Assembly (NCBI RefSeq): GCF_014647375.1
Contig: NZ_BMPB01000004.1
Location: forward strand, 1 to 64,000
DNA from: Parabacteroides faecis
Lineage (GTDB): Bacteria; Bacteroidota; Bacteroidia; Bacteroidales; Tannerellaceae
DNA length: 64,000 bases
Direction: 5' to 3'
Shown: positions 12,862 through 45,165 of the stretch, one piece after another
How the letters are laid out: each line of letters starts with the position of its first letter
Position numbering within the stretch: the stretch's first letter is position 1
Position numbers and translations under genes: made by a program
Notes under the pieces: generated by a model
Seen by the model: only the letters and a program-made list of their open reading frames with translations
Told to the model about the DNA's origin: nothing
Database searches by the model: none

Positions 12862-12923
12862 ATGAGATAACCTTATAGAACCCGAAAAAAATGAAGGTTT
12901 AAAAAGATATTTTTGAAAATAAA

Positions 12924-13839: not shown

Positions 13840-14042
13840 GACTAAAAAAATCGTTCCTTTTTTCTCGCCAGCAAAATTACGACATTCTTTTAAACCACCA
13901 ATGTTTTTACAAATATTTTTTCTTCTCTTATATTCTTTCTTATCAACACAATAGCAAAGTTAGTACAAAATTCCTCTTTTTTTCCACGAAGTGAAAAGAG
14001 ACATCAAATAATGGCGAGAAAAAAGGAACGTTTAATCTAGTC
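13840..14042. promoter_or_regulatory. Probable invertible promoter cassette 1 (203 bp)
   Basis: Two 31-bp arms in inverted orientation, 13840-13870 and 14012-14042, agree at 27 of 31 positions, with a perfect 19-bp core CGTTCCTTTTTTCTCGCCA. The 141-bp centre carries TAACTTTG on the minus strand (13955-13962), a -7-type element pointing away from the S-layer-like gene that starts 80 bases after the right arm. No comparable plus-strand element is seen. Phase variation of S-layer-like glycoproteins by promoter inversion is known in Parabacteroides distasonis. The invertase is not in this window. Confidence 0.7.
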
Positions 14043-14121
14043 ATTTAACAATTGATGACATTTAAACGGGGTTATAGATAGGACTTTTATAACACTATTA
14101 TTAATATTAAATTTATTGATT

Positions 14122-17100
14122 ATGAACAAAAAGTTTTTTACTTTGATGGCTGCCGCCCTGGTAACCGGATCAGTAGCTGCGCAGAATTATGATGCAGGTA
14201 CTGATTTTGTATATCGTCTGGGTACTACCGGCTATACAAACATCGTTGGGTCTGGAGCTAATAATCCGACGCTCGATCCGTCCAGCTCTCCTCTTGCAAC
14301 AGTTACAGGTGCTGAATGGAACAAAAATGTGATGAAAATCAATTCTGATTACTGGTATCAGTTGGAAGTAAATGATCCTTCTACTCCTGCTGCAGATGTC
14401 TTGATTCAGGAACGCGACGAAGAAACAGGTAAAATCTATTTACGTGTTGTTGAAAAAGACGGAACTGCAACAGCTCCTCTGACTGCTTCTCTGTGGAAGA
14501 TTGAATACAGTAAAGAAGATGGTGTAAGTGGTGGCTATTTTTCTTTTGTAAATAAAGAAACTGGCTATAAATTGTCTTTCGACCAGCTTTTGGCAACCAG
14601 TGGTAATGTAGAAGCTCTGAGCAAAGGTGTTTCTGATTGGAGCTGGTATATCAATAATGATAACGGTGCAACAGCACTGGGTTGGACTCCTCTTTACTCT
14701 GTTTATACAGATGCTAATAACAAAAAGCAGGTAATGTATTTGGATAAAGCTACAGCTACAGCAGAAAGCAATGCAATCAATACGGCATTAGCAACTAACG
14801 GTTATAACTGTCAGACTTCTGCTAGTGCTCCTGTTGCTGCTACATCATTGGTTGCTGTTAAGATTAGTGATGTTCCGGCTAACATTTCTTCCTTGAATGC
14901 TTTGGAGATCAAACCGGTTATGGCTGCTCCTTTCTTTATGACTGTAGATGATTTCAACAATCGTTTGGATTCAGACGGTGACGGAAGTTTCAAATTCACA
15001 GTTGAAGAAACAAATGTAATTGGTGAAGGTGTTTTGGAACAGGAGTTTGTTGCAGAAGAAGGTTTAGTAGCTAATCCTGAAACAGCTTTTGGAAACGCTG
15101 ATTATGAAAACTTCAATTTGTCATTCAAGGCTGGCGCTAATTATTTGCAGATCAGCACTGAACGCTATGAAGAAAATAAGCTTCCGAGCGTATCTCCTAG
15201 CGTGAAAGTAATTGCTGCAGCTGCTCCGACAGGTAGTGATTATTTGAAAGCGCGTGCAATGTTCCGTGCAACTTACTTCCCGTCAGAAGACCGCGTATTC
15301 ATCGAACCGTTGAATGCTGGTATTATGACAGATAAAGAATATAACGATGGAACATTGTTTGCTTCATGTGCTGCTGCAACTTCCTTTACAGTAAAAGGTA
15401 CTAACGGTCAGCTTACATCTGCCAACTCTGTAGTTAATGAAGCAGTAGCTGATTATGCTGAAAAATCTGTATCTTTTACAACTGTAAAATTGTCAGATGG
15501 TAGCAAGGTTATTACTGTAGCACCGGCTTCTAAAGATGGTTTTGCTATTACAACTTCTATCGAACAGGCATTCTCTTATCTGCAGCGTGCAGAATTTGCT
15601 TCTAACCTTTATACTATCAAAGATGGTAGCGAATATATCGTATGCAATTTCGCCGGTGACATGCAACTGGATGTTCCGACAGAAAATCAGAACTACGACA
15701 ATATGCCTGCAACAATGTGGACTATTGAGAAAAAAGGTAACGAACAAGTAATCGTTAAGAACCGCGAATTCGGTGTTCCGACAGTATTCGAAGGTCAGCT
15801 TTATGTAAAAGATGGCAAATACTTTGCTATTGATAAAACTTATGCAGGTTTGGCTGCTAAGCAATTGAACGATCGTGAAGCTTATGATATTGCAGCTGTT
15901 ACAGCTAATAATGCATTGACAAGTGCAGATCATGGTTACTATAACGCAGGTGACAAATTGTTGGTTAACAAATTCACTTTCGAATTCAACGATAATCTGG
16001 TTGATGATCACTTCCTGAACTTGACTGATGGTAACTTCTTCGTTCCTACTAAGGGTGTGAATAGCTATTACGAATTCTATGAAGCAGGTACTGTTGCATT
16101 TGGAAGTCAAGTTGCTTCTCTTCCTGCTTTGTCAAGAAAAGCATATACTGTAAAGGTATTGGATGAAACATTGATCGACAACGACAAAACTTGGATTTAT
16201 CAGGTTGAAGAAAACGGTAAGCCGACTTATTACAAGGCTATGACTGAAGCTGAAGGTACTGCTGCAAACTTGAAAAAAGCTGTATTCTTCTTCAAATCAG
16301 ACGAAGTAATGGGTGAAACTGAAACGTATGTATTGATCAAAACAGACGGTACTACTGCTAACACTGCTATCAGTCAGGCTTCTTTGGAATCTACATCTAA
16401 ATTGGCTTACGATGACTTGAATAATATTCCTAGCGAACCGAGCTCAACATTTGCTATTGCATTGGCTGATGTACAGTTGTATCGTGATTTGACAGCTGAG
16501 AAAACTGTTAAGTTCTTCCTGAAGAGAGGTGCAGCTAATGAATATCTGTATGAAGGAAATGGTTCTGAAACATTCGGATTCCTTGGTTTGACTTCTGAAG
16601 GTGTTCACCAGGCTGAAGGTTACAATCCTTCAATGGCTTCATTTAAGGTTAGCGATAATGCAGGTATCATGCCTGAATTCTTGTTCGCTGTTGATACAGC
16701 AACTGTAGCTGATGGTTACTGGTGTGATATTCATGGTTACGAAGTAACTGATCCTTGCGGACATGCTGATCCTTATAAAGGTTATATGACAGGTCGCTTC
16801 CTGATCAACATGAAAGATTACGGTAAAGATTACAAGTTTGAAAGCTATGACCGTCTGGGCTTCGTAGAAGGTATTTATCAGAATGGTAAACTTTATATTC
16901 TGTCAAATGATCCTTTAAATGAAGACGCTGTAACTCTTGCAAGCCTTAAGGTTAGCGAAGAAAAAGGTGGTGTTATCGATCCTGCTAAATTGGCCGCATT
17001 GACTCCGGTAACTATGGGATCTCCTTATACATTCTCACTGCGTCTGATCAACAGAGGTGACGAAGAAAACTTCTTCATCGAATCAGAACGTGTAGCTGCT

Positions 17101-17496
17101 GGTTCATTCACTGGTGGATGGATTAAAGTACAGAACGGTTGTCCGGTGATTGCACGTCATACAGCAACAACTGGTTCATCTGAAGATCATGAAGGTGCTA
17201 ATGGCTCTATCGACGAAATCATGCGTGATGCTCAGATCTTCTCACTGTCTGAAGGTGACGACGTTCCTACTTCAAACGAAGCTATCGATGCTGAAAGCAC
17301 TGTTAAGGTGGTAACAGTAAACGGTGGTATCCAGGTATTGAACGCAGCTGGTAAGACTGTAACAGTTACTAATGTATTAGGCCAGACTGTAGCTAGCACA
17401 GTAGTTTCTTCTGATAACGCAACAATCGCAACTCCTGCTGGTGTAGTAGTTGTAGCCGTTGAAGGTGAAGCAGCTGTAAAAGCTATCGTAAAATAA
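14122..17496 (+). CDS. Giant S-layer-like surface protein with DUF6383-type C-terminus
   Basis: 1124 residues starting with a Sec signal MNKKFFTLMAAALVTGSVAAQ. A TTG two codons earlier is less likely. The body is acidic, Ser/Thr/Ala-rich and beta-predicted, with no enzyme motif. The last 70 or so residues (GIQVLNAAGKTVTVTNVLGQ to the terminal AIVK) match the second S-layer-like protein almost exactly and fit the DUF6383 domain, similar in layout to type IX secretion C-terminal signals. Such proteins form the surface glycoprotein layer of Parabacteroides. Only the signal and C-terminus are strongly shared with the paralogue; the middle has diverged, as expected for exchangeable surface antigens. 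Expression probably depends on cassette 1. Confidence 0.8.
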   Translation: MNKKFFTLMAAALVTGSVAAQNYDAGTDFVYRLGTTGYTNIVGSGANNPTLDPSSSPLATVTGAEWNKNVMKINSDYWYQLEVNDPSTPAADVLIQERDEETGKIYLRVVEKDGTATAPLTASLWKIEYSKEDGVSGGYFSFVNKETGYKLSFDQLLATSGNVEALSKGVSDWSWYINNDNGATALGWTPLYSVYTDANNKKQVMYLDKATATAESNAINTALATNGYNCQTSASAPVAATSLVAVKISDVPANISSLNALEIKPVMAAPFFMTVDDFNNRLDSDGDGSFKFTVEETNVIGEGVLEQEFVAEEGLVANPETAFGNADYENFNLSFKAGANYLQISTERYEENKLPSVSPSVKVIAAAAPTGSDYLKARAMFRATYFPSEDRVFIEPLNAGIMTDKEYNDGTLFASCAAATSFTVKGTNGQLTSANSVVNEAVADYAEKSVSFTTVKLSDGSKVITVAPASKDGFAITTSIEQAFSYLQRAEFASNLYTIKDGSEYIVCNFAGDMQLDVPTENQNYDNMPATMWTIEKKGNEQVIVKNREFGVPTVFEGQLYVKDGKYFAIDKTYAGLAAKQLNDREAYDIAAVTANNALTSADHGYYNAGDKLLVNKFTFEFNDNLVDDHFLNLTDGNFFVPTKGVNSYYEFYEAGTVAFGSQVASLPALSRKAYTVKVLDETLIDNDKTWIYQVEENGKPTYYKAMTEAEGTAANLKKAVFFFKSDEVMGETETYVLIKTDGTTANTAISQASLESTSKLAYDDLNNIPSEPSSTFAIALADVQLYRDLTAEKTVKFFLKRGAANEYLYEGNGSETFGFLGLTSEGVHQAEGYNPSMASFKVSDNAGIMPEFLFAVDTATVADGYWCDIHGYEVTDPCGHADPYKGYMTGRFLINMKDYGKDYKFESYDRLGFVEGIYQNGKLYILSNDPLNEDAVTLASLKVSEEKGGVIDPAKLAALTPVTMGSPYTFSLRLINRGDEENFFIESERVAAGSFTGGWIKVQNGCPVIARHTATTGSSEDHEGANGSIDEIMRDAQIFSLSEGDDVPTSNEAIDAESTVKVVTVNGGIQVLNAAGKTVTVTNVLGQTVASTVVSSDNATIATPAGVVVVAVEGEAAVKAIVK

Positions 17497-17959: not shown

Positions 17960-18162
17960 GACTAAAGAAAACGGTCCTTTTTTCTCGTCACAAAAATACA
18001 ACAATCTTTTTAACCGACAATCTTTTATCCAATCTTTTTTACCGTTTATATCACCTTTCTTATCAGGATGATAGAAAAATAAGGACGAAGTTATCCCTTT
18101 TTGACATGAAATAAAAACCGGGCTCAAAAAATGACTAGAAAAAACGACCGTTTAAACTCGTC
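17960..18162. promoter_or_regulatory. Probable invertible promoter cassette 2 (203 bp)
   Basis: Arms 17960-17990 and 18132-18162, 31 bp each, agree at 24 of 31 positions in inverted orientation and resemble those of cassette 1 (shared core CGkTCcTTTTTTCTCGyCA). The total length is again exactly 203 bp. The word CTTATCA occurs at the same offset (101) in both centres. At the offset of the cassette 1 -7 element, the minus strand here reads TTATTTTT, a weaker match. The right arm ends 80 bases before the S-layer-like gene, as in cassette 1. Confidence 0.65.
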
Positions 18163-18242
18163 ATTTAACGAATATCAACGGTTGAGAGGATTTTATACAT
18201 TAACTTTTAGTATAGTAATATTATTAATTAAATTTATTGATT

Positions 18243-21200
18243 ATGAACAAAAAGTTTTCTACTTTGGTAGCCGGTGCTTTGCTGCTTGGTTCCGTTTCCG
18301 CCTATGCACAGGTGAAAGCGGATAAGGTGACAGAGATTGAAAAGGGCTATTATGTGCTTTCAGGTGAACAGATTAGTGCAGACGATGGTACTGCTGCTGT
18401 GGCTGAATTTTTCAAACTGGATGATGGTAAACTCGTTAAAGTGACAGGTGATTTAGATGCTGATTACAATCAGTCACTATGGACTATTGCCGCAAGTGCC
18501 TCCAATTCAAACCACTTTACATTTGTAAATAAAGCTACTGGTTTGACTATCTCTTTTGATCCGAAGAACGCTGTAGCTGCAGATGACGGAGGTGTAGTAA
18601 CCGCTCCGACAGGTGTTACAGATCCTAGCTTGGTTGTTACCGGTGTTAATATGGCATGGGCATGGGTTGCGAACTCGGCAGATGCAACAGGTTTAGCCGA
18701 TGTGAAAGGTTTAACTTATGCAATCGACACCGACTCGACCATGGCGTTAGGCGTAACGAATATTAGCGGAACAGATTATGTGTATGCTTATAAATACGCT
18801 AATAAAAACATGGGTAGCTTGGGTACGACCAATGCTGATATTCAGGCTGTAAAACCGACTTCAGTTGTTATGAAAGCTGACGATCTGAATGTTTTGACAG
18901 ATGCGACGAACGGTGATTACTTCACAATGACCCCGAACAAAACACCATTGTTCGTTGATGCGATCAGCAATGTGAAATTTCATGCAGAAAATGGTATTCC
19001 CGGTTTTGTTACATTAAAAGAACTCGGTACACAAAAGTACTTACGTGTGGACACGGCTGTTCATGCTGCAACAGGTCTGAATGAAAATAATTTATACCAG
19101 TTGGCTCGTAAAGCATTGAAGACCGGTGAAGATGCATCAGCTCTGGTTCCGAATAATTTCAAGATCGAAAAAGATCTGTTTAGAGACAGTGTTTTCGTTT
19201 CTATAGCGAAAGTAAATTCAAGATTCACTTATGATGAGACTCCTGATGTTGATGGTTCACATTGGTATACAGCTTTGGCTAGCGGTACTCCTTATGAGTA
19301 TTGCACATTGTCGAGTATTCTATTGACACCTACGACAGAGGTGATGACATTTTATTCTCCTGAAACTCCGACGTATGCTACATTAGAAAAAGAAAACCTC
19401 CTTTTCTCTGTGTCTGATGCTGCAACGGCAGTAGATAGCAGAACTTCAATCGCAGATGGTTTGTATTATATCAGAAATGCAAAAGGTCAGTACCTGGCAT
19501 CTCCGATCTACGATAATGGTGAATTGGCTGAATGGGTTACTGTAAATGCTGACGAACAGAATGTGGCTCATATGCCGGCATACCAGTGGGTTGTTTTGAA
19601 AGACAATATTACTGAATATGCGAAAGACAAGTCTACTGTGACATTGACAAACCGTGAGTTTGCTAACTATGCTAAAGCTCCAGCTATACAGTTGTATAAG
19701 AACAGTGGTGCTACTTATTATTCTGTGGCAAGTAATATCTCAATGAATAGCGTTAAGGCTATCGACTCAAAAGACTCTTTGAACTTCATTCAGATCACTG
19801 ACCTGACTGTTTTAGGTGATAGTTTGCTTGGTTACAAGAACTTTGACAGCAACGATTTGAAAGTAAATCGTTATACATTCAACTACTTTAACCCGTATGT
19901 AAGCGATAAGTATATTGGCAAGTCTACGGATTCGCTGTTGGTTGTTAAAGACAATATCCAGCCGTTTGTAGTGAACGCTGTAGGTACTATTGCTGATTAT
20001 GGTTATACGGTAGCAAATGCTAACGGTCGTATCAGTGGTTTGAAGCAATTACGGCGTCAGGCTTATCAGATGACTGTTCCTGCTGCTGATGGTAATTTGA
20101 AATTCGGTGTAGATGCAGAAAACCAATACGCTATTTCTGCGGATCCTGACTTTGATCTTGTAACATTCTTCTTCAAAGAAAATAATGATGTACAGAGAAC
20201 CAGCGACGAACAGAAAAATGATTTCTATACATTGGTAGTTCGTGATAATCCTTTAAAGATTAAAGCCGGTGTTTCTGACGAAACTCAGGATGCTACTTTG
20301 AAAGCACAGTTGATCGCAGAAGCCAGAACTTCTTCTTTCCTGATCTCTCCTTATGATGCTCCTCTCTATCGTCGTTTCAACACGACTCTGGAAGGTGCGG
20401 TAGCCGGTGACGGTCCTGATACTGTAAGATTCGTTGAACAATATCGTAAAGAATACCTGCAGATCGAAGGTAACGAGAACTTTACTCACAAAGGTATCGA
20501 CTTCCTGGGTATCTACACAGACGCGAAAGCTCCTTCCGGATTGGCGTTTATCGTTGATACGGCTTGGGTGAATCGTGGTGCCGGTTATATCAAACCGCAG
20601 TATCTGATCTCTATTGAACGTACTGATAAAGCGGCAACTCCGGGTGTGCCTTGTACTGAAACAGGTAAGCATTATGATAAAAATGGAAAGGAAACCGATG
20701 CAGAACATTGTGGTCATGCTACACCTGCTGTTCCGGGCTTCGAATTCGGAAAATATCTGGTGAATTTCAAAGACTCTGCTGCTGTAGCCGGTAATGAAGA
20801 AGTTTACGCATGGAAGAAATATATTCGCGCTGGTTTCGTGAAAGCGGCTCATGTAGGTGACAGTCTGTATATCCTGAACGGTATGTTTGCTGACGTTACT
20901 GCCAAAGATTTTGATCCTGCGGCTGTTCGTGAAGCAGTTAAAGCCGGTAAATATTCAGCCGACTATATCGTTAACCTGAGAGGTGACCGCCATAAAACGG
21001 TGACCTGGTCTTTCCGTTATCTGAATCCGGCTAAGGCTGCAACTGACGATAAGAGATTCCTGATCGAATCGATCGCTGTGAATCCTGCAGACGAAATCGC
21101 TCCGGTGAATGCGAACTGGTTGAAGATGCAGAACGGTTGTCTGGTTCTTTCTGACGACGATTCTAAGTTCGATCTCTTTACCCGTGATGACGATGCTTTG

Positions 21201-21464
21201 ATCTTCGATGTAGAATATAAGGCAGATGACGAAGTGGCAACAGATGCTGTTACTCCTTCCGTATCTACGATCAGTGTAACTGCAACAGAAGGTGCTGTTG
21301 TCGTTAAGGGTGCACAAGGCAAGAAGGTGGCTGTCAGCAATGTTCTCGGCCAGACTGTAGCCAGCACGCTGATTACTTCCGACGAAGCTACTATCGCTGC
21401 TCCTGCTGGTGTTGTGGTTGTTGCTGTCGAAGGCGAAGCTGCTGTGAAAGCGATTGTAAAATAA
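18243..21464 (+). CDS. Second giant S-layer-like surface protein with DUF6383-type C-terminus
   Basis: 1073 residues with signal peptide MNKKFSTLVAGALLLGSVSAYAQ. The leader (TTTATTGATT before the ATG), signal and last 50 residues (SNVLGQTVASTLITSDEATI onwards) closely match the first protein, while the centre is only loosely similar. Scattered shared words support paralogy, for example ILNREF/TNREFA and GFVKAAH/GFVEGIY-type segments followed by FLIES. No enzyme motif is visible. It probably forms an alternative S-layer. A His/Cys-rich loop near residues 800-835 (PCTETGKHYDKNGKETD) is paralleled by a shorter CDIHGY...DPCGH loop in protein 1. Expression probably depends on cassette 2. Confidence 0.8.
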   Translation: MNKKFSTLVAGALLLGSVSAYAQVKADKVTEIEKGYYVLSGEQISADDGTAAVAEFFKLDDGKLVKVTGDLDADYNQSLWTIAASASNSNHFTFVNKATGLTISFDPKNAVAADDGGVVTAPTGVTDPSLVVTGVNMAWAWVANSADATGLADVKGLTYAIDTDSTMALGVTNISGTDYVYAYKYANKNMGSLGTTNADIQAVKPTSVVMKADDLNVLTDATNGDYFTMTPNKTPLFVDAISNVKFHAENGIPGFVTLKELGTQKYLRVDTAVHAATGLNENNLYQLARKALKTGEDASALVPNNFKIEKDLFRDSVFVSIAKVNSRFTYDETPDVDGSHWYTALASGTPYEYCTLSSILLTPTTEVMTFYSPETPTYATLEKENLLFSVSDAATAVDSRTSIADGLYYIRNAKGQYLASPIYDNGELAEWVTVNADEQNVAHMPAYQWVVLKDNITEYAKDKSTVTLTNREFANYAKAPAIQLYKNSGATYYSVASNISMNSVKAIDSKDSLNFIQITDLTVLGDSLLGYKNFDSNDLKVNRYTFNYFNPYVSDKYIGKSTDSLLVVKDNIQPFVVNAVGTIADYGYTVANANGRISGLKQLRRQAYQMTVPAADGNLKFGVDAENQYAISADPDFDLVTFFFKENNDVQRTSDEQKNDFYTLVVRDNPLKIKAGVSDETQDATLKAQLIAEARTSSFLISPYDAPLYRRFNTTLEGAVAGDGPDTVRFVEQYRKEYLQIEGNENFTHKGIDFLGIYTDAKAPSGLAFIVDTAWVNRGAGYIKPQYLISIERTDKAATPGVPCTETGKHYDKNGKETDAEHCGHATPAVPGFEFGKYLVNFKDSAAVAGNEEVYAWKKYIRAGFVKAAHVGDSLYILNGMFADVTAKDFDPAAVREAVKAGKYSADYIVNLRGDRHKTVTWSFRYLNPAKAATDDKRFLIESIAVNPADEIAPVNANWLKMQNGCLVLSDDDSKFDLFTRDDDALIFDVEYKADDEVATDAVTPSVSTISVTATEGAVVVKGAQGKKVAVSNVLGQTVASTLITSDEATIAAPAGVVVVAVEGEAAVKAIVK

Positions 21465-35676: not shown

Positions 35677-36120
35677 ATGAAGAAGTATTTATATCTATGC
35701 CTGGCAGTTGTGGGAATAGCCGTATTTGCTTCCTGTAAATCACAAAAAGCAGTGGTCGCATCTTATTCCGATTTGAATGGAGAATGGAGTGTGGTAGAAC
35801 TGAACGGTAAAAAGTTAGACCCGTCAGAAAGTAACCAGCTCATAGTCATTGACGTTGCACGCAACCATTTGTCAGGAAATGCAGGTTGTAACCGTATGAA
35901 TGGGAATATTGAATATTCGGAAGCCAGAAAAAACATCATTAAGTTTCCTCAAGTGGCAACAACACGTATGGCGTGTCCTAATTTGAAGGGAGAACAGGAG
36001 TTTCTGGAAGCTCTGAACAAAGTAGTCCGTTTTGAGGCAGAAGGAAATGTGAAACCTGTGAATACGATTGCTTTTTACGGGACCGATAACGGGAAACTGA
36101 TGGTTATCGAAAAGAAATGA
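35677..36120 (+). CDS. META-domain lipoprotein 2
   Basis: 147 residues; lipoprotein signal ends AVFASCKSQ. Same META pattern as the previous gene: LNGEWSVVELNGKKL, HLSGNAGCNRMNGN and TTRMACPNLKGEQEF. The pair are tandem paralogues and certainly one operon (5-base gap). A strong bidirectional terminator follows at 36142. Confidence 0.88.
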   Translation: MKKYLYLCLAVVGIAVFASCKSQKAVVASYSDLNGEWSVVELNGKKLDPSESNQLIVIDVARNHLSGNAGCNRMNGNIEYSEARKNIIKFPQVATTRMACPNLKGEQEFLEALNKVVRFEAEGNVKPVNTIAFYGTDNGKLMVIEKK

Positions 36121-36141
36121 TAATACAAACATTATAAATTA

Positions 36142-36178
36142 GAAGAGGTGGCCCTGTTGAAGGAGGCCACCTCTTTTC
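36142..36178. terminator. Bidirectional terminator
   Basis: AGAGGTGGCC / GGCCACCTCT perfect 10-bp stem with T-rich flank on the plus side and A-rich context on the other, between convergent genes; it overlaps the stop of the minus-strand gene by two bases. Confidence 0.85.
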
Positions 36179-36809
36179 AGTTCAAAGATAGAGCATAGTT
36201 GCATAATTTTTTAACTTCGCCAATAGTCTCAAAATCTATCTTATTACCATCAATGTATTGTTTAAGCTGCTCTTTGTGTTTAGAGAATATTTTTAAGAAT
36301 TGTTTTTCTGTAGAGAAACTCTTAAACCCTTTACCTTTTTCAATATAGAATTTATACTTTATCTTGTCTAAAAAAGTATTTGCTTGGTAATCTCCTGAAC
36401 CATATATGAGATTGCTATAGCCTTCGACAGAAGCTGTTTCTGTTTTACCACCATATGTCAAATCTTTTTTGATTTTCCTTGTTCCATTGTATTGGACAAG
36501 GATTTTAGGTTCAGATTGGATTAATTCAGCTGTTTCTTTGCTTGAAACCGGTAGAAAAGTTCTTTCTCCTATTTTGAGAGAAGTAACCATATTCGGATCG
36601 GAAAACTCTTTCTTTATATTATCATTGTCAATGAAGAAAAACTTTCCATTGAATAAATTATAGTTGAGCGGTACATGGAATATTCTTCCGTCTTTGTAAT
36701 AAACATATCCTTTCGTAAATTCAGGAAAAAGATAAGGTGTATTATCTTCTTGGGAATAAACGTTGAACAATTCGAAACAAGAAATTAAAAGAATTAGAAT
36801 GTATTTCAT
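36177..36809 (-). CDS. Secreted protein of unknown family
   Basis: 210 residues with signal peptide MKYILILLISCFELFNVYSQ. The first 130 residues look beta-rich (GYVYYKDGRIFHVPLNYNLF); the last 60 are helical and Lys/Phe-rich (KQFLKIFSKHKEQLKQYIDG). I do not recognise a family. Base composition is visibly more A+T-rich than in the flanking genes, which hints at recent arrival. It stands alone between a terminator and the SusCD operon. Confidence 0.7.
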   Translation of the reverse strand: MKYILILLISCFELFNVYSQEDNTPYLFPEFTKGYVYYKDGRIFHVPLNYNLFNGKFFFIDNDNIKKEFSDPNMVTSLKIGERTFLPVSSKETAELIQSEPKILVQYNGTRKIKKDLTYGGKTETASVEGYSNLIYGSGDYQANTFLDKIKYKFYIEKGKGFKSFSTEKQFLKIFSKHKEQLKQYIDGNKIDFETIGEVKKLCNYALSLN

Positions 36810-36914
36810 TTTGACTTATTTATGGGGTAAATGAATATAGTCGTATAAAATTCCCGTAAATAGTAATTGAGTTAGTAGAGCTGTGAAGCTCTACTAACAT
36901 AAAAAGTTATCGTT

Positions 36915-37658
36915 TTATTTTAATAGCTGCACCTGAATTTCATACAACCGTCTTGTTTCAGGAACACCTTCCGGTCTGAAAGTTGTATTAATAACCATAT
37001 ATTGATGTGGTTTGGTGAAATCTCCAGGGGCACCTAAAGTCGGTGCTCCGTTAACCGGTTCCACCCGGCATGCATACATATCTTCCAGGATAAGTTCTAT
37101 GACTAATGCGTCTTGCCTTACCGGTACGATTGCGGAACGATATTTACCTGTTTCAACTTCTTCAACGAATACGGGGTGTAGATTGTCACCATCAAAAGCA
37201 GATGCTACAAACAGATGTCCTTTGTTGGGTGTTGTGTACATCACGTTTGCCGGAGAAAAGACATGGATTATATATTTCTTCCCGTCGGGGGCAGAACTGT
37301 CGTCCACAACTTCCAATGTATTTTGTACGAACATCGTTTCTCCCGTTTTTAGCACTTTACCCATGATAGTAACATCTGAACCGGTGTTATTGGTATAATC
37401 TATTCCGTTTTGGAAACTTTCACTGATAAGCGTTTGAGCAAGCCAGTTTTCTAACCACTGACCTTTTCCATCGTTATGGTTTACTTGCCAGATCTTGTTT
37501 GTAAACAGTTCACGGACACGGACTTTAGCCAGGCCGGATCCCAAATTTACGTTTGTATAAATGGATTCGGGTACTTCATCGTAGACTAATCCGCTTTGAC
37601 AACCTGATAGAGCTGTCAGGCAACATACTGCTGCGATTAATATATTTTTAAGTTTCAT
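36915..37658 (-). CDS. Lipoprotein of a SusCD locus, family unknown
   Basis: 247 residues; lipoprotein signal ends ALSGCQSG. After YDEVPESIYTNVNLGSG the protein looks like a beta-rich carbohydrate- or protein-binding lipoprotein, with no recognised domain. It follows susD after 19 bases and is the last gene of the operon; in SusCD loci this place usually holds a surface glycan-binding protein. No glycoside hydrolase is present here, so the locus may take up something other than a plant polysaccharide. Ligand unknown. Confidence 0.7.
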   Translation of the reverse strand: MKLKNILIAAVCCLTALSGCQSGLVYDEVPESIYTNVNLGSGLAKVRVRELFTNKIWQVNHNDGKGQWLENWLAQTLISESFQNGIDYTNNTGSDVTIMGKVLKTGETMFVQNTLEVVDDSSAPDGKKYIIHVFSPANVMYTTPNKGHLFVASAFDGDNLHPVFVEEVETGKYRSAIVPVRQDALVIELILEDMYACRVEPVNGAPTLGAPGDFTKPHQYMVINTTFRPEGVPETRRLYEIQVQLLK

Positions 37659-37677
37659 ACTTATTTCTGTTTAAATG

Positions 37678-39660
37678 TTATTGATAGCTTCTGTTTTCCC
37701 AACCCGGATTCTGAACCAGATTCTTGTCACTTTCCAAAGTTGTTTTTGCAAAAGGAAGTTTATAAAACACTGCGTTGTTGAATTTGCGTTCGTAATATGA
37801 GTTATCTATCGGACGCACTTCGAAGTACGGAGTGAAATATTTAGGATCTGTTTCCGGTGCCGGATAGCCGTTATCTTCCACTTTTTCGCTTTCGACACCC
37901 TTGCGGAAAATAAACATACCGGAAGAAGGCTTGTTTAATTCTTCGATTACAGTTTTACCTTCTGATTCACCCCATCTGAGCAAATCGAAATAGCGGTGAG
38001 ACGGTACTTCGAATGCAAATTCAATACGGCGTTGCAATTGGTATTCTTCCCATAAATTATGTCCGACAACAGATGCATCGAAGTTGTCCAAGCCGGCACG
38101 ATTACGGATCTGGTTGATGGCATCTACAACCTCACTTTCTTTTCCTCCCAGCTTGTATGCAGCTTCGGCCATATTTAGCAGTGCTTCGGCGTAACGTACC
38201 ATGAAGAATGAAATAGATGTTTGTTTTGTCTCCAGGGTTCCATCTTCCTTAAATTTTCCGGGAACATATTTAGCAGTATAATATCCGGTCATCGAAGACT
38301 GGCCGCGGCCTGCTATTTCCAGTTTTTCCGAAGATTTGTAAGTGGTATGCAATGCGCTGTATTTTTCAGTTTTTGTTGGTACCGAATAATCGATCCATAC
38401 ACCAACCAGACATTTTTCAACTCCTTCTTTATCTGCATAATAAGAACCGTCATAAAGTACAGTCGTATAGAAACGTTTGTCTCTGTCGGTATACATCAAC
38501 TGATAATCTTTTGTTGTTGCTTTTAAAGCTCCGTTTGCTCCGGCTTCAACCCCCATCTCTTTAGCTTGCTGTGTTTTCCACCATTGCATCCATTTGCCTG
38601 TTGCTTTGTCTTTCTGGTAATAACAGTCGACTAACTCCTGGGTAGGATAAGCACCTCCATGATCTCCGCCCCAGTCAGGACTATGATCGGTCGTTGCCCC
38701 GTACATTCTTCCTCCGGGATGTGCATAATTAGCCGGGTTAAATCCGCTTCTGTTGGATTCATTGAACATCATCGGCCAAATAGACTCAACAGAGGTATGA
38801 CCTGTTGCTCCGTTGAACAGATTCCGGTAATCCGGATCTAACGAATACTTGCCGATAACAGATTTGGCTGCATTATAAGCAATCTGATAATAATGATTCG
38901 CATCTTTGGTGAACCTGTAAAGAGCTTTGCTTTTGTCTGAACCGGCCAACTTATCATACAGACCTTTAGATGATGCTGCCGCAGCACAGGCAGCAGTCAG
39001 GGCAGCACGTGATTTCAACACCTGAACAGCATCTGCATTAATCAGACCTAATGTCGGTTTGCTGGTCATTTTGCCAAAGTATTCCAATGATTTGTCATAA
39101 TCGGCCAGAATCTGGTCGAAGACTTCTTCACGGGTATTTTGTGCGAGCATTGTCTCATCAAATATGGTCATAGAGTTTGTAACGATAGGTAATCCTCCCC
39201 AGTACCTTTCCATATCGAAATAAAACTGAGCTCTGAAAGCATAGCTTTCTGCCATTAGTTGATCTCTTACTTCTTCCGTCATATTCGGAACACTGGGAAT
39301 TCGCTCGATGGCAAGGTTGACCTGACGAATATTTTTGTAGCCGTCTCCCCATGGAGCTCCTGTCAGGCTGGTAATGCCGGTTAATTCATCATACCGCCTA
39401 TTGTTAAAGTCATATTGGCGGAAGGTAGTCTGGTCACGGTCAACATTACCGACTGCGTTGTCAGACCATTGTTCTGATCTGAAAGCATGATTGGCACCGG
39501 CAGGAGCCCACAGGTAAAATTGATTGACAAAGGAACGGGACAACTGCGGGTTTTCCCAGAACTGGTCTTCGAAAACGCTGGTAGTCGGTTCGATTCCTAA
39601 TGGATCGCAACTCGAGAAACATACGGCTGCGAGTAACGCGAATATATTTATTTTCTTCAT
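37678..39660 (-). CDS. SusD/RagB family outer-membrane lipoprotein
   Basis: 660 residues, longer than the average SusD (about 550). Lipoprotein signal ends CFSSCDP. SusD marks include EPTTSVFEDQFWENPQLSRSF near the N-terminus, AESYAFRAQFYFDMERYWGGLPIV in the TPR helices and NMAEAAYKLGG...INQIRNRAGLDNF near the end, then the family tail RRIEFAFEVPSHRYFDLLRWGE. It forms the lid over its SusC barrel partner, encoded 23 bases upstream. Substrate cannot be told from sequence. Confidence 0.92.
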   Translation of the reverse strand: MKKINIFALLAAVCFSSCDPLGIEPTTSVFEDQFWENPQLSRSFVNQFYLWAPAGANHAFRSEQWSDNAVGNVDRDQTTFRQYDFNNRRYDELTGITSLTGAPWGDGYKNIRQVNLAIERIPSVPNMTEEVRDQLMAESYAFRAQFYFDMERYWGGLPIVTNSMTIFDETMLAQNTREEVFDQILADYDKSLEYFGKMTSKPTLGLINADAVQVLKSRAALTAACAAAASSKGLYDKLAGSDKSKALYRFTKDANHYYQIAYNAAKSVIGKYSLDPDYRNLFNGATGHTSVESIWPMMFNESNRSGFNPANYAHPGGRMYGATTDHSPDWGGDHGGAYPTQELVDCYYQKDKATGKWMQWWKTQQAKEMGVEAGANGALKATTKDYQLMYTDRDKRFYTTVLYDGSYYADKEGVEKCLVGVWIDYSVPTKTEKYSALHTTYKSSEKLEIAGRGQSSMTGYYTAKYVPGKFKEDGTLETKQTSISFFMVRYAEALLNMAEAAYKLGGKESEVVDAINQIRNRAGLDNFDASVVGHNLWEEYQLQRRIEFAFEVPSHRYFDLLRWGESEGKTVIEELNKPSSGMFIFRKGVESEKVEDNGYPAPETDPKYFTPYFEVRPIDNSYYERKFNNAVFYKLPFAKTTLESDKNLVQNPGWENRSYQ

Positions 39661-39683
39661 ATTTCTTAATTTGTCTGTTGTGA

Positions 39684-42600
39684 TTACAATGTTAATGTAG
39701 CACTGAGTGTGAAAGAGCGTTGGGTAGGATAGCTACCGAATTTATTTCCGCCCCAGATCGAGTTGGCCGGCAGATATTCCGGGTCCGTTAAATTTTTGAA
39801 CGGATTACTTTTCTTAACCCAGGTATGTACATTGTTGGCAATGAAGTTCAGCTGTAAACCTTTGATGTAGCTTACGTTTTTAAGTACTCTTCGTTTTAAA
39901 TCGTAACTTACGCTGATATTCTTGAGCTTCAGGTAAGATGCGTCATATACCCAAGAATCGACAAAGCTGTATCCCCAGCCATAAGTGGAGTTAGTAGGCA
40001 ACGGCAGCTTGTTTGTGATCGGGTTGCTTGGTGTGTAAGATTCCTGCCACAGGTATTTAGCGTATTTCCAATAGTAATCCTGTTGTGAACGGGCAGGAGA
40101 GACTACATCTCCGGTAACGTTGGCGGCTCCCTGCAGGAAGATTTCAAAGCTGAAATCTTTCCAGCCCAGGCCAAGTGTGATACCGTACAGCGTTTGTGGA
40201 ACTTCGCCGCCTCTTTCATCCCAAACCTGGTCGCCGCCGTTCAATACACCGTCACCATTGATATCTTGCATCCTGAATGTACCGAGAGTGTGGTTACGGG
40301 TGAAATGCAGGTAGGAATTGTACATATCTTCATAAGATGTGAACAGGCCGTTTGTTTGCCATGCTACTGTATAAGTTTTCACTTGGTTTCTTTTACCCAG
40401 ATTCGTTAAGTTCGGATAGTAATAGTCAGTATCTTCTTTGGTGTGTCTTACCGTTATTTTATCCCAATAGGTGTAGTTAGCTCCGATTTTATAAGTGAAA
40501 TCACCGATCTGGTCATTCCAGTTTAAATTGAATTCAACACCACCTTGATGCGTGGTCACGTAAGGAGCATTCATTTTCGGGGTATTGGGCAAACCCAGGA
40601 CAGGCGTGTAAGTCAGTTTAGGATTCATATCCATTTCGTCACCTTTGTTCAGATATAAATAAGTATCGAATGAACCGCTTAACCGATCCTTGAAAAATCC
40701 GAAGTCAACTCCACCACTGATCTGTTGCGATTCACCCCAGGTCAGATTGCTGGATACGTTACTTTCTTTCCAGGCGGAGCTTGAACTCATGTTTTCACCT
40801 GTCAAGATAGTTTTTGACAACTCATACTGGTTCATATAACTGAACGGTTCTGAAAGTTCTTTACCAACCACACCATATCCGGCGCGGATCTTGAACATAT
40901 TGATATAATCCGTGTTGATGATATCCTTGATAAAGCTTTCTTCTGTCAGAACCCAACCGCCTGATATTGCATAGAAAAATCCCCAACGCTTGTCCGGGTG
41001 GTAGCATAGAGAACCGTTATAGTTTGCGCTAAATTGCAACAAATATTTGCTGTCGTAATCATATGAAACACGTCCGACCCAGCTTGCCGAACCCCATTGT
41101 CCTTCTGTACCACTCATACTTTCCATGGTTGATCCGCCGTCTATTTGCGGATAGAAAGTGGTCGGATAACCATATTTTTTAGCCATGGTTTTGTTGGTAT
41201 TTCTTACCTGGCTTTGGTAGTTGGCCATGGCCGACAGATTATGCTTACCAAAAGAACGGTTATAATCCACCTGGAAGATACCGGTTGTCAAAGAATAGTT
41301 ATTCCATGTCTGTGTCAGATGGGCATCATTCGGGTTGAAGTTATTTTCCTGTGTTGCATACGGATTTGCATATACTCCTTCTTCCGGATGTTTGAAGACT
41401 TTGTTCATAGAATAACTGTGGTTGAAGTTGAGGCTTGCGCTGGCTGCCAGACCTTCTACCCAGGGTATATTCCATTTTAATCCCATACTGGCCTGTAAAC
41501 GGTAGTCGTCTGTATTATTAAAACCATTGCGCAGTCTGGAGTCCAAACCTCCGGCTCTGTCCAAACCGGTTGTCCAGTTACGTGGTATTGAATGGATTTC
41601 ATCACCTTCAATCAAAACCGAGTTGAAGATACCGTCGCCGCCTTCCGGTTGTTTCTTTTTAGCCATGATCCCATTCAGGTTCATGGTGAACCGCAGGCTT
41701 TTGTCTTTAAGCAAAAAGGCTTCCGTATTGACGATGGCATTGTACTGTTCGTAGTTATACGTATCGCTGATACCTGACTGGTTTAAATATCCTAAACTGG
41801 AATAGTATCTGACGCGTTCGCCACCACCACGTACACTTATGTTCGTTTGTGTCATCGGCTGTGTGTTGTTGAACCAGTCCCAGGGATCTTCATATGTATA
41901 GTAGTTGTTAATGTCACCGCCCTGGGTTACAAACGGATTGAACAGATCGTTTACATCTTGTAATGAATATCCCATATTATATTTCTGGTTGACCATATCG
42001 GTGATTTCCTGGCGGCCATATCCTTGCTGGCTCAGATGCCCCATATAATATTTGGACAATTGTGTCGTATTGTATGCCGGATTTTCTTCCATATTGGCTG
42101 CATACAATTCATTTTTCATATTCACATAGTCCCATGAGCTCATAGATTTAGGTCTGTAAGAGGGAGTCATAAGTGTGAACTTTTGGTTTACCGTGATATC
42201 CAGGGAGCCTTCCTGGCCTCTTTTCGTCGTTACCACTACTACACCGTCGCTGGCACGCGGACCATATACGGCTGTAGCCGATGCATCTTTCAGAATAGTC
42301 ATGGAAGCGATATCTTCCGGACGCAGACGGTTAAAGAATACTTCACCCTGTTCTGTTTCCATTACTACATCGTCGACTACATACAAAATATCGCTACCAC
42401 CACGGATCCAAATCTTAGAAGTTTCACCCGGAGCACCGGAACGTGCCTGTGAGATGATACCGGCTACGCGGCCTCCCAAACCGTCGCTGACGGAAGTCAC
42501 CGGCAATTTGGCAATCGATTCCATCTTTACGGTAACGGCAGAAGCGGTCAATGTCTTGGCTTTCTGTACGCCGCTGAAACCGGTTACGACTACTTCGTCC

Positions 42601-42953
42601 AGGGTCTGTGAGTCCTCCATTAACTTTACATTAATAGATGCCTGACCTGTGTACTTGATTTCCTGCGTAGTGTAACCGATGAAAGAGATTTGGATGATGT
42701 TTCCTTGTTTTACACCCTCTAATGTGAAATTACCGTCCATGTCGGTAATAATACCGTTTGTGGTTCCTTTCACAATGACTGAGGCTCCGGCTACGGGACC
42801 GAATTCATCTTCTACTGTTCCTGTCACTTTCCCGTTTTGTTGGGAAATGCTCACACTCGGTCTAATGGGTGTTGTGTCGGCTTTTATGCTCTCGGGAGAA
42901 CATAATATGCCTGCAAACAGCATTAAACCAATCGGTTTGAAGTTTTTTAGCAT
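39684..42953 (-). CDS. SusC/RagA family TonB-dependent outer-membrane receptor
   Basis: 1089 residues. After the signal peptide (to about 25) comes a carboxypeptidase-regulatory-like domain (GKVTGTVEDEFGPVAGASVIVKG, about 40-120), the TonB box/plug start DEVVVTGFSGVQKAK and the plug with YVVDDVVMETEQGE and ASATAVYGPRASDGVVVVTT. The barrel ends RSFTLSATLTL. It imports a nutrient captured by SusD. It is preceded in the same direction by a DUF4469-type gene, with array C in the 180-base gap, and all four genes probably answer to the invertible promoter at 43.9-44.1 kb. Confidence 0.95.
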   Translation of the reverse strand: MLKNFKPIGLMLFAGILCSPESIKADTTPIRPSVSISQQNGKVTGTVEDEFGPVAGASVIVKGTTNGIITDMDGNFTLEGVKQGNIIQISFIGYTTQEIKYTGQASINVKLMEDSQTLDEVVVTGFSGVQKAKTLTASAVTVKMESIAKLPVTSVSDGLGGRVAGIISQARSGAPGETSKIWIRGGSDILYVVDDVVMETEQGEVFFNRLRPEDIASMTILKDASATAVYGPRASDGVVVVTTKRGQEGSLDITVNQKFTLMTPSYRPKSMSSWDYVNMKNELYAANMEENPAYNTTQLSKYYMGHLSQQGYGRQEITDMVNQKYNMGYSLQDVNDLFNPFVTQGGDINNYYTYEDPWDWFNNTQPMTQTNISVRGGGERVRYYSSLGYLNQSGISDTYNYEQYNAIVNTEAFLLKDKSLRFTMNLNGIMAKKKQPEGGDGIFNSVLIEGDEIHSIPRNWTTGLDRAGGLDSRLRNGFNNTDDYRLQASMGLKWNIPWVEGLAASASLNFNHSYSMNKVFKHPEEGVYANPYATQENNFNPNDAHLTQTWNNYSLTTGIFQVDYNRSFGKHNLSAMANYQSQVRNTNKTMAKKYGYPTTFYPQIDGGSTMESMSGTEGQWGSASWVGRVSYDYDSKYLLQFSANYNGSLCYHPDKRWGFFYAISGGWVLTEESFIKDIINTDYINMFKIRAGYGVVGKELSEPFSYMNQYELSKTILTGENMSSSSAWKESNVSSNLTWGESQQISGGVDFGFFKDRLSGSFDTYLYLNKGDEMDMNPKLTYTPVLGLPNTPKMNAPYVTTHQGGVEFNLNWNDQIGDFTYKIGANYTYWDKITVRHTKEDTDYYYPNLTNLGKRNQVKTYTVAWQTNGLFTSYEDMYNSYLHFTRNHTLGTFRMQDINGDGVLNGGDQVWDERGGEVPQTLYGITLGLGWKDFSFEIFLQGAANVTGDVVSPARSQQDYYWKYAKYLWQESYTPSNPITNKLPLPTNSTYGWGYSFVDSWVYDASYLKLKNISVSYDLKRRVLKNVSYIKGLQLNFIANNVHTWVKKSNPFKNLTDPEYLPANSIWGGNKFGSYPTQRSFTLSATLTL

Positions 42954-43032
42954 AATGTGCGTTTTTAGTTTAATATTAATATGTATAGGTAAAAAAACTC
43001 TCTGATTTTGTTTTGGTATTTTTCTGATGGTT

Positions 43033-43137
43033 GGAAGAGTACGCTTCCACTCATCGGAAGAGCACGCTTCCAGCTATCGGAAGAGCACACTTCCAGTCAT
43101 CGGAAGAACACTCTTCCGGTCACCGGAAATGATTTAT
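43033..43137. repeat. 23-bp palindromic tandem array C (four full units plus one partial)
   Basis: Units start at exactly 43033, 43056, 43079 and 43102, each a near-palindrome of the type GGAAGAGCACGCTTCC followed by a 7-base spacer (ACTCATC, AGCTATC, AGTCATC). A fifth GGAAA at 43125 keeps the 23-bp register and reaches the 3' end of the DUF4469-type gene. It fills the DUF4469-susC gap and could fold into a row of small hairpins in the operon mRNA. Confidence 0.75.
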
Positions 43138-43901
43138 TCTATTTCCGGCCTGTCGCTTCCTCCAACTGTCAGCACGTAGGGGAAACGGTTGCGGCGGGGT
43201 TCGCTTACTAAAAATTTTGTATTACCGCTTGACTGGGTTGCAATTTCCAGATAGTAAGTACCGGCTGCCAAAGGCGGAATGATGAAAGAGAAATAGGATG
43301 GATCGTTGCGTAACAACGAGGCTACCGGAACCTTTGTCTCTGTTTTGTCTGCTATGGAAACAAAATAGAAACCGACTTCTTTCCCTTCTTCGCCGATAAT
43401 TCTTACGCGGTTTCCTTCTCCGTTCAGGCCGCCTCCCGGTGTGATCTGATTGTTTACGCTTCCTGTCGTTACATCTGTCACTACTGTTATGACCGGTAGA
43501 CCCTCAGATGTTCCGGAGATGATGACAGTTATATTGTCGAGATCTTTTTTTAGTTCGGCGAGGGGAACACTTCGTAGAACGACCTTGTTTTTCGTTTGAT
43601 TGAATTTCGCATCCGGACCGATGAACGGGCCGTCAGCTCCTAATGAGTTAGTCGTAAAACCAAATTCTACGGTAGAAGCATTGTATAATTCGATTTTTGC
43701 CTGTTCTTTCAGGGCGTTGTAAGCACTTTCCAGTTCTGAGGCAGAGAATTTACTGTTTGCTGCGGCTAACTGGCAAAGAGCTTTTATGTCTCGGTTTGCC
43801 TGATAAACAATATTACAAGTGAAGTCGTCTTCGCGTTCAGTCAATTTGTTCGGTGTTAATTTTCCTGTAATGCTGCGCATTTTAGGTTCTGTTGCTGCCA
43901 T
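43134..43901 (-). CDS. HU-like/DUF4469-type protein heading the SusCD operon
   Basis: 255 residues without signal peptide. Residues about 1-125 resemble the HU/IHF-like domain found in Bacteroidetes (KLTPNKLTEREDDFTCNIV, then RDIKALCQLAAANSKFSASELESAY), and residues about 130-255 are an immunoglobulin-like part (NRVRIIGEEGKEVGFYFVS) fitting DUF4469. It may bind DNA or structure the nucleoid; this is inference. It starts 18 bases left of the recombination arm at 43919, so it is the first gene read if the cassette inverts. The distribution of function between the two halves is unknown. Confidence 0.72.
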   Translation of the reverse strand: MAATEPKMRSITGKLTPNKLTEREDDFTCNIVYQANRDIKALCQLAAANSKFSASELESAYNALKEQAKIELYNASTVEFGFTTNSLGADGPFIGPDAKFNQTKNKVVLRSVPLAELKKDLDNITVIISGTSEGLPVITVVTDVTTGSVNNQITPGGGLNGEGNRVRIIGEEGKEVGFYFVSIADKTETKVPVASLLRNDPSYFSFIIPPLAAGTYYLEIATQSSGNTKFLVSEPRRNRFPYVLTVGGSDRPEIE

Positions 43902-43918
43902 ATTAATATTAGTTTATT

Positions 43919-44134
43919 TAGTCCTTGGAGAACTAAGTACTTTAACGAGGTTTTATTTACTTTTGAAGTAGATTGAACACTTAAAATGGAGTTTGACATG
44001 AATTTGCATGCACTTATAGAGATGAAATGTTAATTGATTTAGTTAAAAAAACAATATTTCAAATAAATATTATTGTTATTTAAAATTAATCTATATTTTT
44101 GCGGGGTAAAACAACCTTAGTTCTCCAAGGACTA
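43919..44134. promoter_or_regulatory. Probable invertible promoter of the DUF4469-SusCD operon
   Basis: Perfect 19-bp inverted repeats TAGTCCTTGGAGAACTAAG (43919-43937) and its complement (44116-44134) flank 178 bp. Inside, TATTTTTG at 44094-44101 with an ATTG-like -33 at 44072 points to the plus strand, away from the operon; another -7-like TACTTTTG lies at 43958-43965 on the same strand. No minus-strand TAnnTTTG is seen. Inversion would place the promoter in front of the DUF4469-type gene. No invertase lies in the window. Confidence 0.65.
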
Positions 44135-44149
44135 GGGTTGTTTTGTTTT
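44108..44149 (+). terminator. Terminator hairpin that contains the right recombination arm
   Basis: AAAACAACCTTAGTTCT (44108-44124) pairs over all 17 positions (two G-T pairs) with 44128-44144, loop CCA, followed by TTTTGTTTTG. The expected start of the 44094 promoter is at about 44108, so the transcript would end at once. Confidence 0.8.
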
Positions 44150-44256
44150 GTAATGTAAATGATTCAAAGTGTCTGGTTGCCTTGTTTATTCTAGGGGTAA
44201 ATATTGTGTTGATTTTATTTTTATAAATAATGTTGTGTGTATTGTGATTTTTTTTA

Positions 44257-44382
44257 TATGTTTGCGAGATTCTTGATTGGAGTTTTGGAATATATATTAT
44301 GAATTCATTTAGTTACAATAGAAAATTTCTTACCATAGGCTGCATCTAAGAGAATAGGTGGGAAGATGTAGCTGTGTTTTTT
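44257..44382 (+). promoter_or_regulatory. Leader with promoter, 16-codon frame and terminator
   Basis: TATGTTTG at 44257-44264 with GTTG 21 bases upstream forms a promoter. A 16-codon frame (44299-44349, MNSFSYNRKFLTIGCI) stops inside the left arm of hairpin GCTGCATCT/AGATGTAGC (44339-44372), which is followed by TTTTTT. This could be a leader-attenuator for the lipoprotein gene at 44431 or a separate small RNA. The flanking bases 44150-44256 hold nothing else that I see. Confidence 0.4.
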
Positions 44383-44430
44383 AACCACGCATTATATTCA
44401 GTTGTTTTAATCTTCTAATACATTTATACT

Positions 44431-45165
44431 ATGAAATCAAGTGTCTTATATTTTATATTGATTATGGCTGTTTTAGTTGGCTGTACAAATGATAATGAAC
44501 CAGTATTGGATCAGGTTATTAATCAAAATGAAGTAAATATCAATCAATTAAAGCAGATAGCAGCAAGTTCCGGCTGGCGTGTTTCTCCGAAAGTGGAGAT
44601 GGGGGATAGGATAACTCCGTTGACGGAAGGGGAGATAAAGAATTTCCAGGAAGATTTGCAAGAGTATTCTGTTTATCCCAAGATGCAGGAGGAACGAGAG
44701 GTCGAAGTGATACCTATTGGGGATCAGTATATATTCATGTTACCATTTACTCCGAAGCTTTTAACAAAGTCTTATTCCGGTGGGTCTGTAATTGTGTATG
44801 CGACTTATGGTGAGTGTTTTCTAAATGTTTGTAATCAGGTTGAAATAAAAGTGTGTTATGACTTAGATGAGTATGGCAATATTGTGTATGCTTTCGCTGG
44901 TTCAGAATCGTTAATATCTGCAGGTTCTACCTTTTGCCCTTATGGTACTATTCGTTATACAACGGCGTATTATGAGTGCAGTTGGGGAAGTGATACTGTT
45001 TCTCTTAAATTATGGCTTAATCGTACAAGGTATGACAACTCTTTTAGTGATAAAGAGCATTTTATGGTAACAGGTTCTGTTAATATTAAAACAGGAACTG
45101 CTAATCTAGAGTCTAAGTATGTAGGAAAAGGACTTTGGTCTCCTATTATTACAACACAAAAGTAG
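44431..45165 (+). CDS. Lipoprotein of unknown family
   Basis: 244 residues; signal MKSSVLYFILIMAVLVGCTN with lipobox LVGC. A short helical start (NQNEVNINQLKQIAASSGW) is followed by a beta-rich body containing several aromatic strands and five Cys (YGECFLNVCNQVEIKVCY) that could form disulfides. I do not recognise a family. It is convergent with the MG2-type gene and separated by a shared hairpin. Its relation to the SusCD cassette upstream is unclear: the plus-strand promoter inside the cassette is terminated before reaching it. Confidence 0.7.
   Translation: MKSSVLYFILIMAVLVGCTNDNEPVLDQVINQNEVNINQLKQIAASSGWRVSPKVEMGDRITPLTEGEIKNFQEDLQEYSVYPKMQEEREVEVIPIGDQYIFMLPFTPKLLTKSYSGGSVIVYATYGECFLNVCNQVEIKVCYDLDEYGNIVYAFAGSESLISAGSTFCPYGTIRYTTAYYECSWGSDTVSLKLWLNRTRYDNSFSDKEHFMVTGSVNIKTGTANLESKYVGKGLWSPIITTQK

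Follow-up and report, generated by a model that had tools for sequence, protein, structure and literature searches.

A predicted OFF-state terminator at an invertible promoter upstream of a DUF4469-SusC-SusD operon in Parabacteroides faecis

The promoter switch located upstream of a DUF4469-SusC-SusD operon, a set of surface genes for nutrient uptake, in Parabacteroides faecis adds a new member to a family of promoter switches that is already known. The best explanation of its layout, which we consider moderately probable as a whole, is a promoter that is flipped in trans, directed toward the operon in the ON orientation and toward an orientation-specific intrinsic terminator in the OFF orientation. 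The arms, the promoter and the hairpin are present in the DNA, and the predicted fold depends on orientation.

Layout of the switch and its neighboring genes

The window (i.e., the whole 64,000-nucleotide stretch of DNA that was analyzed) lies on contig C4 of a 6.66 Mb genome (G000). The switch and the genes around it contained the following features:

36915..37658, minus strand: lipoprotein-like ORF with a weak DUF5018-related match (Pfam PF22243); probably a further operon gene, judging from its spacing
37678..39660, minus strand: SusD-family lipoprotein (Pfam PF07980, PF14322)
39684..42953, minus strand: SusC/RagA TonB-linked outer membrane protein (NCBIfam TIGR04056)
43134..43901, minus strand: first operon gene, HU-like DNA-binding domain plus DUF4469 (Pfam PF14848, PF14734)
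43919..43937, plus strand: left inverted-repeat arm (recombination site) with core AGTCCTTGGAGAACT, 17 nt from the operon ATG
43938..44115, no strand: invertible segment of 178 bp, at present in the OFF orientation
44072..44101, plus strand: promoter directed away from the operon, consisting of ATTG (-33 like), an 18-nt spacer and TATTTTTG at 44094-44101 (-7)
44107..44145, plus strand: hairpin of 18 pairs in which the arm is extended by the inner flank on the promoter side and by the outer flank; this strong in the OFF orientation only
44116..44134, plus strand: right inverted-repeat arm, entirely within the hairpin
44138..44149, plus strand: T tract TTGTTTTGTTTT, comprising the 3' half of the stem base plus the tail
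44257..44264, plus strand: fixed promoter-like box TATGTTTG before the divergent right-hand gene, with a 3/4 match at -33 and a 19-nt spacer
44431..45165, plus strand: divergent lipoprotein-like ORF with no Pfam family at E <= 0.001

The two arms (43919-43937 and 44116-44134) were complementary at 19 of 19 positions with 178 nt between them, which reproduces base for base the perfect inverted repeats claimed in the original prediction from the sequence. In Markov-1 versions of the window (n = 30, spacing 80-650) the longest inverted repeat was 11-17 bp. The window therefore has one of the features of an inverton, namely near-perfect inverted repeats around a promoter (19/19 arms with TATTTTTG inside). 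The promoter was found, as claimed, on the plus strand and directed away from the operon (TATTTTTG at 44094-44101). The ATTG upstream of the box matched TTTG at three of four positions with 18-nt spacing, and the box was 17 nt from the arm core, the usual distance among family elements.

Three perfect TAnnTTTG boxes occurred in 43880-44440 (at 43958, 44094, and 44257), all on the plus strand. The operon looks OFF because no perfect TAnnTTTG box was found on the minus strand of the same interval. The original prediction had named a fixed minus-strand promoter as evidence against a switch; no Bacteroidota consensus box of that kind was found, but one 5/6 minus-strand box (TAATTTTA) was located within the segment at a distance of 146 nt from the left arm, and a sigma-70-type scan returned 11 sites on both strands together, versus 6.9 expected, with minus-strand sites among them. 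The OFF reading of the present orientation survives this testing.

Four relatives of the window DUF4469 protein were found in named genomes, all of them Parabacteroides. Additionally, the gap between the DUF4469 gene and susC contained a short hairpin (43113-43129; TTCCGGTCACCGGAA) that was terminator-like on both strands in a simple scan and is a possible site of attenuation inside the operon.

A strong hairpin that depends on orientation

The hairpin with a T tract, originally described as 17 bp, was found to have 18 pairs (44107-44124 with 44128-44145), a 3-nt loop and a folding energy of -21.8 kcal/mol (z -5.95); 0 of 200 shuffles folded as well. Two details of the original prediction held as stated: the right arm (44116-44134) is wholly contained in the hairpin, and the outer half of the stem (GGGTTGTTTT, 44135-44144) occurs only on the right side and is missing from the left flank. 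The ON junction, built in silico, reached only -6.0 to -7.8 and had an A-rich tail (AAATAAACTAATATT), in agreement with the claim that no terminator would form after inversion. The right outer flank joined to the other (non-promoter) inner end reached -8.9. Because these alternative junctions fold weakly, a hairpin of this strength can form only where the promoter-side inner flank meets the distal outer flank.

The stable short-loop hairpin followed by a U-rich tract that characterizes an intrinsic terminator was present, with the T tract partly paired in the full stem. The tail beyond the full stem is merely GTTTTG, and a long T-rich tail requires that the A/U stem base be open. A simple terminator scanner listed the site on the minus strand only, not on the plus strand. 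When the 739 hairpin-plus-T sites of the whole window, both strands included, were ordered by energy, the hairpin came fourth. Nine sites, including the switch hairpin, were at or below -19; six of these followed the end of a plus-strand ORF within 300 nt, and the remaining two were a reverse-strand copy of an ORF-end hairpin and a minus-strand site at 12923. Plus-strand ORFs in 36120-44107 were short (86-156 aa) and overlapped minus-strand genes, so there is no apparent plus-strand gene needing the hairpin. The switch promoter, rather than an upstream plus-strand gene, would need the terminator.

Read leftward, the two junctions had energies of -13.1 (OFF) and -6.5 (ON); the OFF fold may therefore weaken read-through into the operon, with a poor leftward tail. 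The claim that the OFF state wastes the promoter covers part of the predicted effect; besides this possible leftward effect, the divergent right-hand gene would be shielded by the hairpin.

A two-sided switch, with the divergent lipoprotein gene (44431-45165) as the target of the OFF promoter and the hairpin as a 5' leader, is improbable. The promoter does face this gene at a distance of about 320 nt, and the family includes elements flanked by alike genes (L042 and L114), but a hairpin-plus-T site intervenes between promoter and gene, and a separate promoter-like box precedes the gene at 44257. Even less probable is an OFF transcript that acts as a short stable RNA with its own function (a small RNA or a 5'-hairpin stabilizer). 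The predicted product, about 40 nt with one hairpin, would have a suitable form, but it has hardly any unpaired bases for a target and Rfam, searched up to E 1, had nothing that matched the hairpin; elsewhere Rfam gave two sub-threshold matches only.

A family of related elements

The genome contained many site pairs of the form AGTYC-N5-GRACT. Both strands of the window arms fit AGTYYYN4GDACT (by eye), the arm consensus of the Bacteroides fragilis Tsr0667 regions. Using a related pattern, AGTTCN5GAACTATG with at most one mismatch, 97 matches were found in the genome versus 9 for the control. About 35 candidate switches were recovered from the genome; a site pair was present in 35 of the 41 stretches examined, some of the pairs being weak. 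The family set comprised 123 elements with non-identical interiors from this genome, eleven same-genus genomes, and further records; one of the eleven (G019) contributed no elements. A search of 59 other Bacteroidales genomes with the 17-base site gave 1-2 matches per strand in seven of them, too few for replication.

The interiors of the 123 elements (loci L003-L166) contained 139 perfect TAnnTTTG boxes, and 78 of these were 14-19 nt from the arm core that they faced (mode 16). The position of the promoter relative to the recombination site therefore seems constrained; at this distance transcripts in both states should start just before the arm, so that the arm would be near the 5' end of ON and OFF transcripts alike. 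A smaller cluster of 12 boxes was found 30-34 nt from the arm core.

Counts were made on a subset of 65 elements having one clear promoter end and a gene side defined by homology (SusC, DUF4469, or sigma factor). The other 58 of the 123 were left out: 35 lacked one clear promoter end, 14 lacked one clear gene side, and nine lacked both. An earlier count (31 clusters) had 17 gene sides set by hand and nine elements skipped; later counts use homology. As assembled, 53 of the 65 selected elements were OFF and 12 were ON. HU/DUF4469-type elements made up 23 of the 65. Across several genomes, the ATG of an HU/DUF4469 gene was repeatedly preceded by an arm core at a distance of 17-20 nt (L010-L014, L016, L020-L022, L066, L099, and L102). 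In four elements (L042, L114, L122, and L125) genes with alike N-termini were present on both sides of the inverton; these are possibly A-or-B switches instead of ON/OFF switches.

Inversion and the recombinase

Family members have inverted between species. Among 58 element pairs in which flanks and interiors both aligned (rows that are not independent and include some paralogues), the interior was inverted relative to the flanks in 12. Three of the locus pairs were nearly identical over about 800 nt of flank and carried opposite interiors: L035/L094 (flanks 94.9%, interior 97.1%), L137/L151 (flanks 95.7%, interior 90.5%), and L138/L152 (flanks 98.2%, interior 97.4%). It is because of these three pairs that the family is taken to invert. 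The closest DUF4469 relative, L010 (the same locus as L063), was ON, and its interior does not align with that of the window. The window copy itself was seen in the OFF orientation only, in one assembly. From the family and homologue evidence, its inversion is very likely.

The genome contained 23 integrase-family matches, 22 of them over the cut-off. Twelve integrase loci, accounting for 15 of the 23 matches, were examined and contained no perfect arm site; the enzyme therefore probably acts in trans. From protein comparisons, the best candidate recombinase is C1:630543 (311 aa). Across 39 genomes, its orthologues at 75-76% identity occurred only in G009, G013, and G038, which are inverton-rich; G014 and G015 carry sites yet lack an orthologue that close (75-76%).

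A second instance of the hairpin

One family element, L019 (G013:C22), aligned with window positions 44040-44148 (73% over 118 nt), an alignment that includes the promoter half, the arm, and the outer flank. L019 is also OFF, and the start of its predicted transcript folds into a hairpin of -11.2 (z about -2.9) whose 3' foot is TTTTTTTT with a T8 run. The hairpin is kept though its letters differ from those of the window. L019 targets a different susC, with 36% identity over 439 aa. The original prediction had proposed to look in related genomes for the same pairing of arm and terminator; L019 does keep the arm and a terminator-like hairpin, but the extended stem is no rule of the family. As two sequences, L019 and the window lend support to a terminator rather than proof by covariation, and it counts against the preferred explanation that they are just two instances and that the window was selected for its hairpin.

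The pairing of inner and outer flanks could have arisen by chance in an AT-rich region, where flanks rich in T or in A are frequent, and a single element was picked out by a reader. This is highly unlikely: 1 of 20000 outer-flank shuffles reached the observed energy, and when the inner and outer flanks of 65 family elements were mismatched, 0 of 4160 pairings reached -21.8 (the lowest was -18.6). The changed letters of the L019 hairpin likewise speak against chance.

Generality of the OFF-state terminator

Extension of the stem was rejected as a family-wide rule, since matched and mismatched inner/outer pairings folded alike on average (-7.20 and -6.94, respectively). The comparison of promoter-distal and promoter-gene folds gave p 0.43 for 31 homology clusters and p 0.046 for 56 distal-flank clusters. 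The strongest stems after that of the window were found in L115 (-17.5) and L033 (-14.5).

The U-score of the 56 distal-flank clusters was higher on the distal side than on the gene side in 40 and lower in 16 (p 5e-5). Using a threshold of dG <= -5 and U >= 3, distal arms were called terminator-like in 14.5 of 56 clusters and gene-side arms in 3 of 56. When the distal side was combined with the other inner end instead, 13.2 of 56 clusters were terminator-like; in many members, therefore, the arm itself gives the stem in either orientation.

The T-tract idea was written down after the window and loci up to L062 had been read; L063-L066 had been fetched before this but were unread, L067-L166 were fetched afterwards, and the split into discovery and held-out sets was made later, with the pooled results already known. 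In the discovery set (29 clusters) the T tract differed between distal and gene sides with p 0.0004. In the held-out set (27 clusters) the distal side exceeded the gene side 17:10 (p 0.0245), the comparison with shifted positions was 14:13 (p 0.12), and T content near versus far gave p 0.15. The last-fetched loci alone (6 clusters) had no T-tract trend. In the DUF4469 subset the gene side was likewise above its shifted positions (p 0.001). Contrary members included L034, L039, and L057, which were terminator-like on the gene side, and L127, in which the gene side folds far better (-16.1 versus -3.8).

Reading outward from the core, the distal-outer, promoter-inner, and other-inner flanks of the 65 elements shared the motif A-[AT]-G-[GT]-[CT] followed by a T-rich stretch. 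Because this shared motif looks like a recombinase half-site, the distal T trend has a second explanation. For the window, the corresponding reading takes the extended dyad of the right arm not as an RNA terminator but as a strengthened site for recombinase binding, with two good half-sites that tune flipping. We regard this as unlikely, although it is the most serious of the alternatives. Both flanks of the window hairpin (AAGGTTGTTTT and AGGGTTGTTTT) fit the half-site motif, and near-core T content is similar in distal and promoter-side inner flanks (0.49 versus 0.47, p 0.41). Well-conserved flank positions, by our reading, end about 5 nt past the core, however, while the dyad pairs 12 nt past it. 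Distal flanks were also T-richer than the other inner end at nt 3-23 (0.44 versus 0.37, p 0.004), though not at nt 12-30 (p 0.45; elements not clustered in this comparison). The terminator and the extended binding site are compatible with each other. Overall, the T tract after the distal arm is only a trend, partly reproduced in later-fetched elements and confounded by the half-site. The predicted OFF-only terminator is probably an element-specific refinement with one homologous second case.

Comparison with known systems

Like the window and its family, the Tsr0667-type regions of B. fragilis (SusC/SusD phase variation) have palindromic arms that fit AGTYYYN4GDACT, an internal promoter, susC/susD operons downstream, and many scattered regions per genome. 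A susC/susD-type operon is likewise located downstream of the window switch. Printed comparisons were drawn from portions of PMC2784873, PMC4747536, PMC8748976, PMC11892184, PMC10994844, PMC12118408, PMC7366714, PMC10773633, PMC11852207. The role of Tsr0667 in B. fragilis inversions is described in PMC4747536 and PMC11852207; the portions of these two papers that were available make no mention of an OFF-orientation terminator like that predicted for the window switch. A partial literature survey, with thin coverage of subscription journals, found no OFF-orientation terminator for Bacteroidales invertible promoters.

The nearest parallel in termination is Clostridioides difficile CwpV, where an intrinsic terminator was proposed at the inverted-repeat junction in one orientation only (PMC2784873, in part). 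In CwpV, as predicted for the window switch, inversion would make or break an intrinsic terminator, but the inverted CwpV segment does not include the promoter, and the gene silenced by the terminator is the target itself (PMC2784873). The window promoter was found inside the segment, and its terminator would cap the misdirected transcript. Escherichia coli fimS/fimE also has orientation-dependent termination beside an invertible promoter; the fimE terminator, unlike that predicted for the window switch, is Rho-dependent and acts on the recombinase transcript, according to PMC2784873. For the B. fragilis IVp-I exopolysaccharide promoter, the available part of PMC4747536 cites an inverse relation, with less transcription as more repeats lie between promoter and genes. 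These intervening inverted-repeat copies suggest that arms can hamper transcription, as the right arm of the window switch would; unlike in the window, the effect is on the ON side and a terminator is not proposed there (PMC4747536).

Other inverted repeats in the window

A second perfect 19-bp inverted repeat (CGTTCCTTTTTTCTCGCCA) was found at 13852-14030, with 141 bp between its arms. It is 85 bp before a 1126-aa DUF6383 ORF (14116-17496), with TAATTTTG directed away from the gene, and looks like an inverton of another family that is now OFF. An imperfect copy of this repeat (CGGTCCTTTTTTCTCGTCA ... TGACTAGAAAAAACGACCG) was located at 17972-18150, before the next DUF6383 ORF (18237-21464). 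In the genome there were ten such repeat pairs with at most three mismatches, nine of them exactly 160 bp start to start. The arrangement is reminiscent of the phase-variable surface glycoproteins of P. distasonis.

Proposed mechanism and its meaning

In the mechanism that we propose, a tyrosine recombinase acting in trans would flip the 178-bp segment between the arms, as the family suggests. In the ON (leftward) orientation the promoter would transcribe the DUF4469-SusC-SusD operon. The ON RNA, which we infer to start about 8 nt before the arm, would carry a weak arm hairpin and an A-rich tail. In the OFF (rightward, present) orientation, the inner flank AAAACAACC would be put opposite GGGTTGTTTT of the fixed outer flank, and the 5' end of the transcript would fold into the 18-pair intrinsic terminator and presumably stop after about 40 nt. 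The terminator would keep stray transcripts out of the divergent right-hand gene, and leftward read-through toward the operon may be weaker as a result. A terminator in the OFF state is likely, on the evidence of the family and the L019 homologue.

With about 35 candidate switches in the genome, and with family elements mostly OFF (53 of the 65 selected), a means to stop stray antisense and read-through transcription is needed. A simple answer, if true, would be a terminator that only the OFF orientation puts together. Such a terminator would also add orientation-dependent termination, which in the CwpV precedent has another layout, to the invertible promoters of Bacteroidota. A wider version, which we put forward tentatively and think rather doubtful, is that in Parabacteroides switches of this family the fixed distal flank and the arm complete an intrinsic terminator, so that the promoter toggles between the operon and a terminator dock. 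If so, many OFF promoters per genome could fire without disturbing their neighbors.
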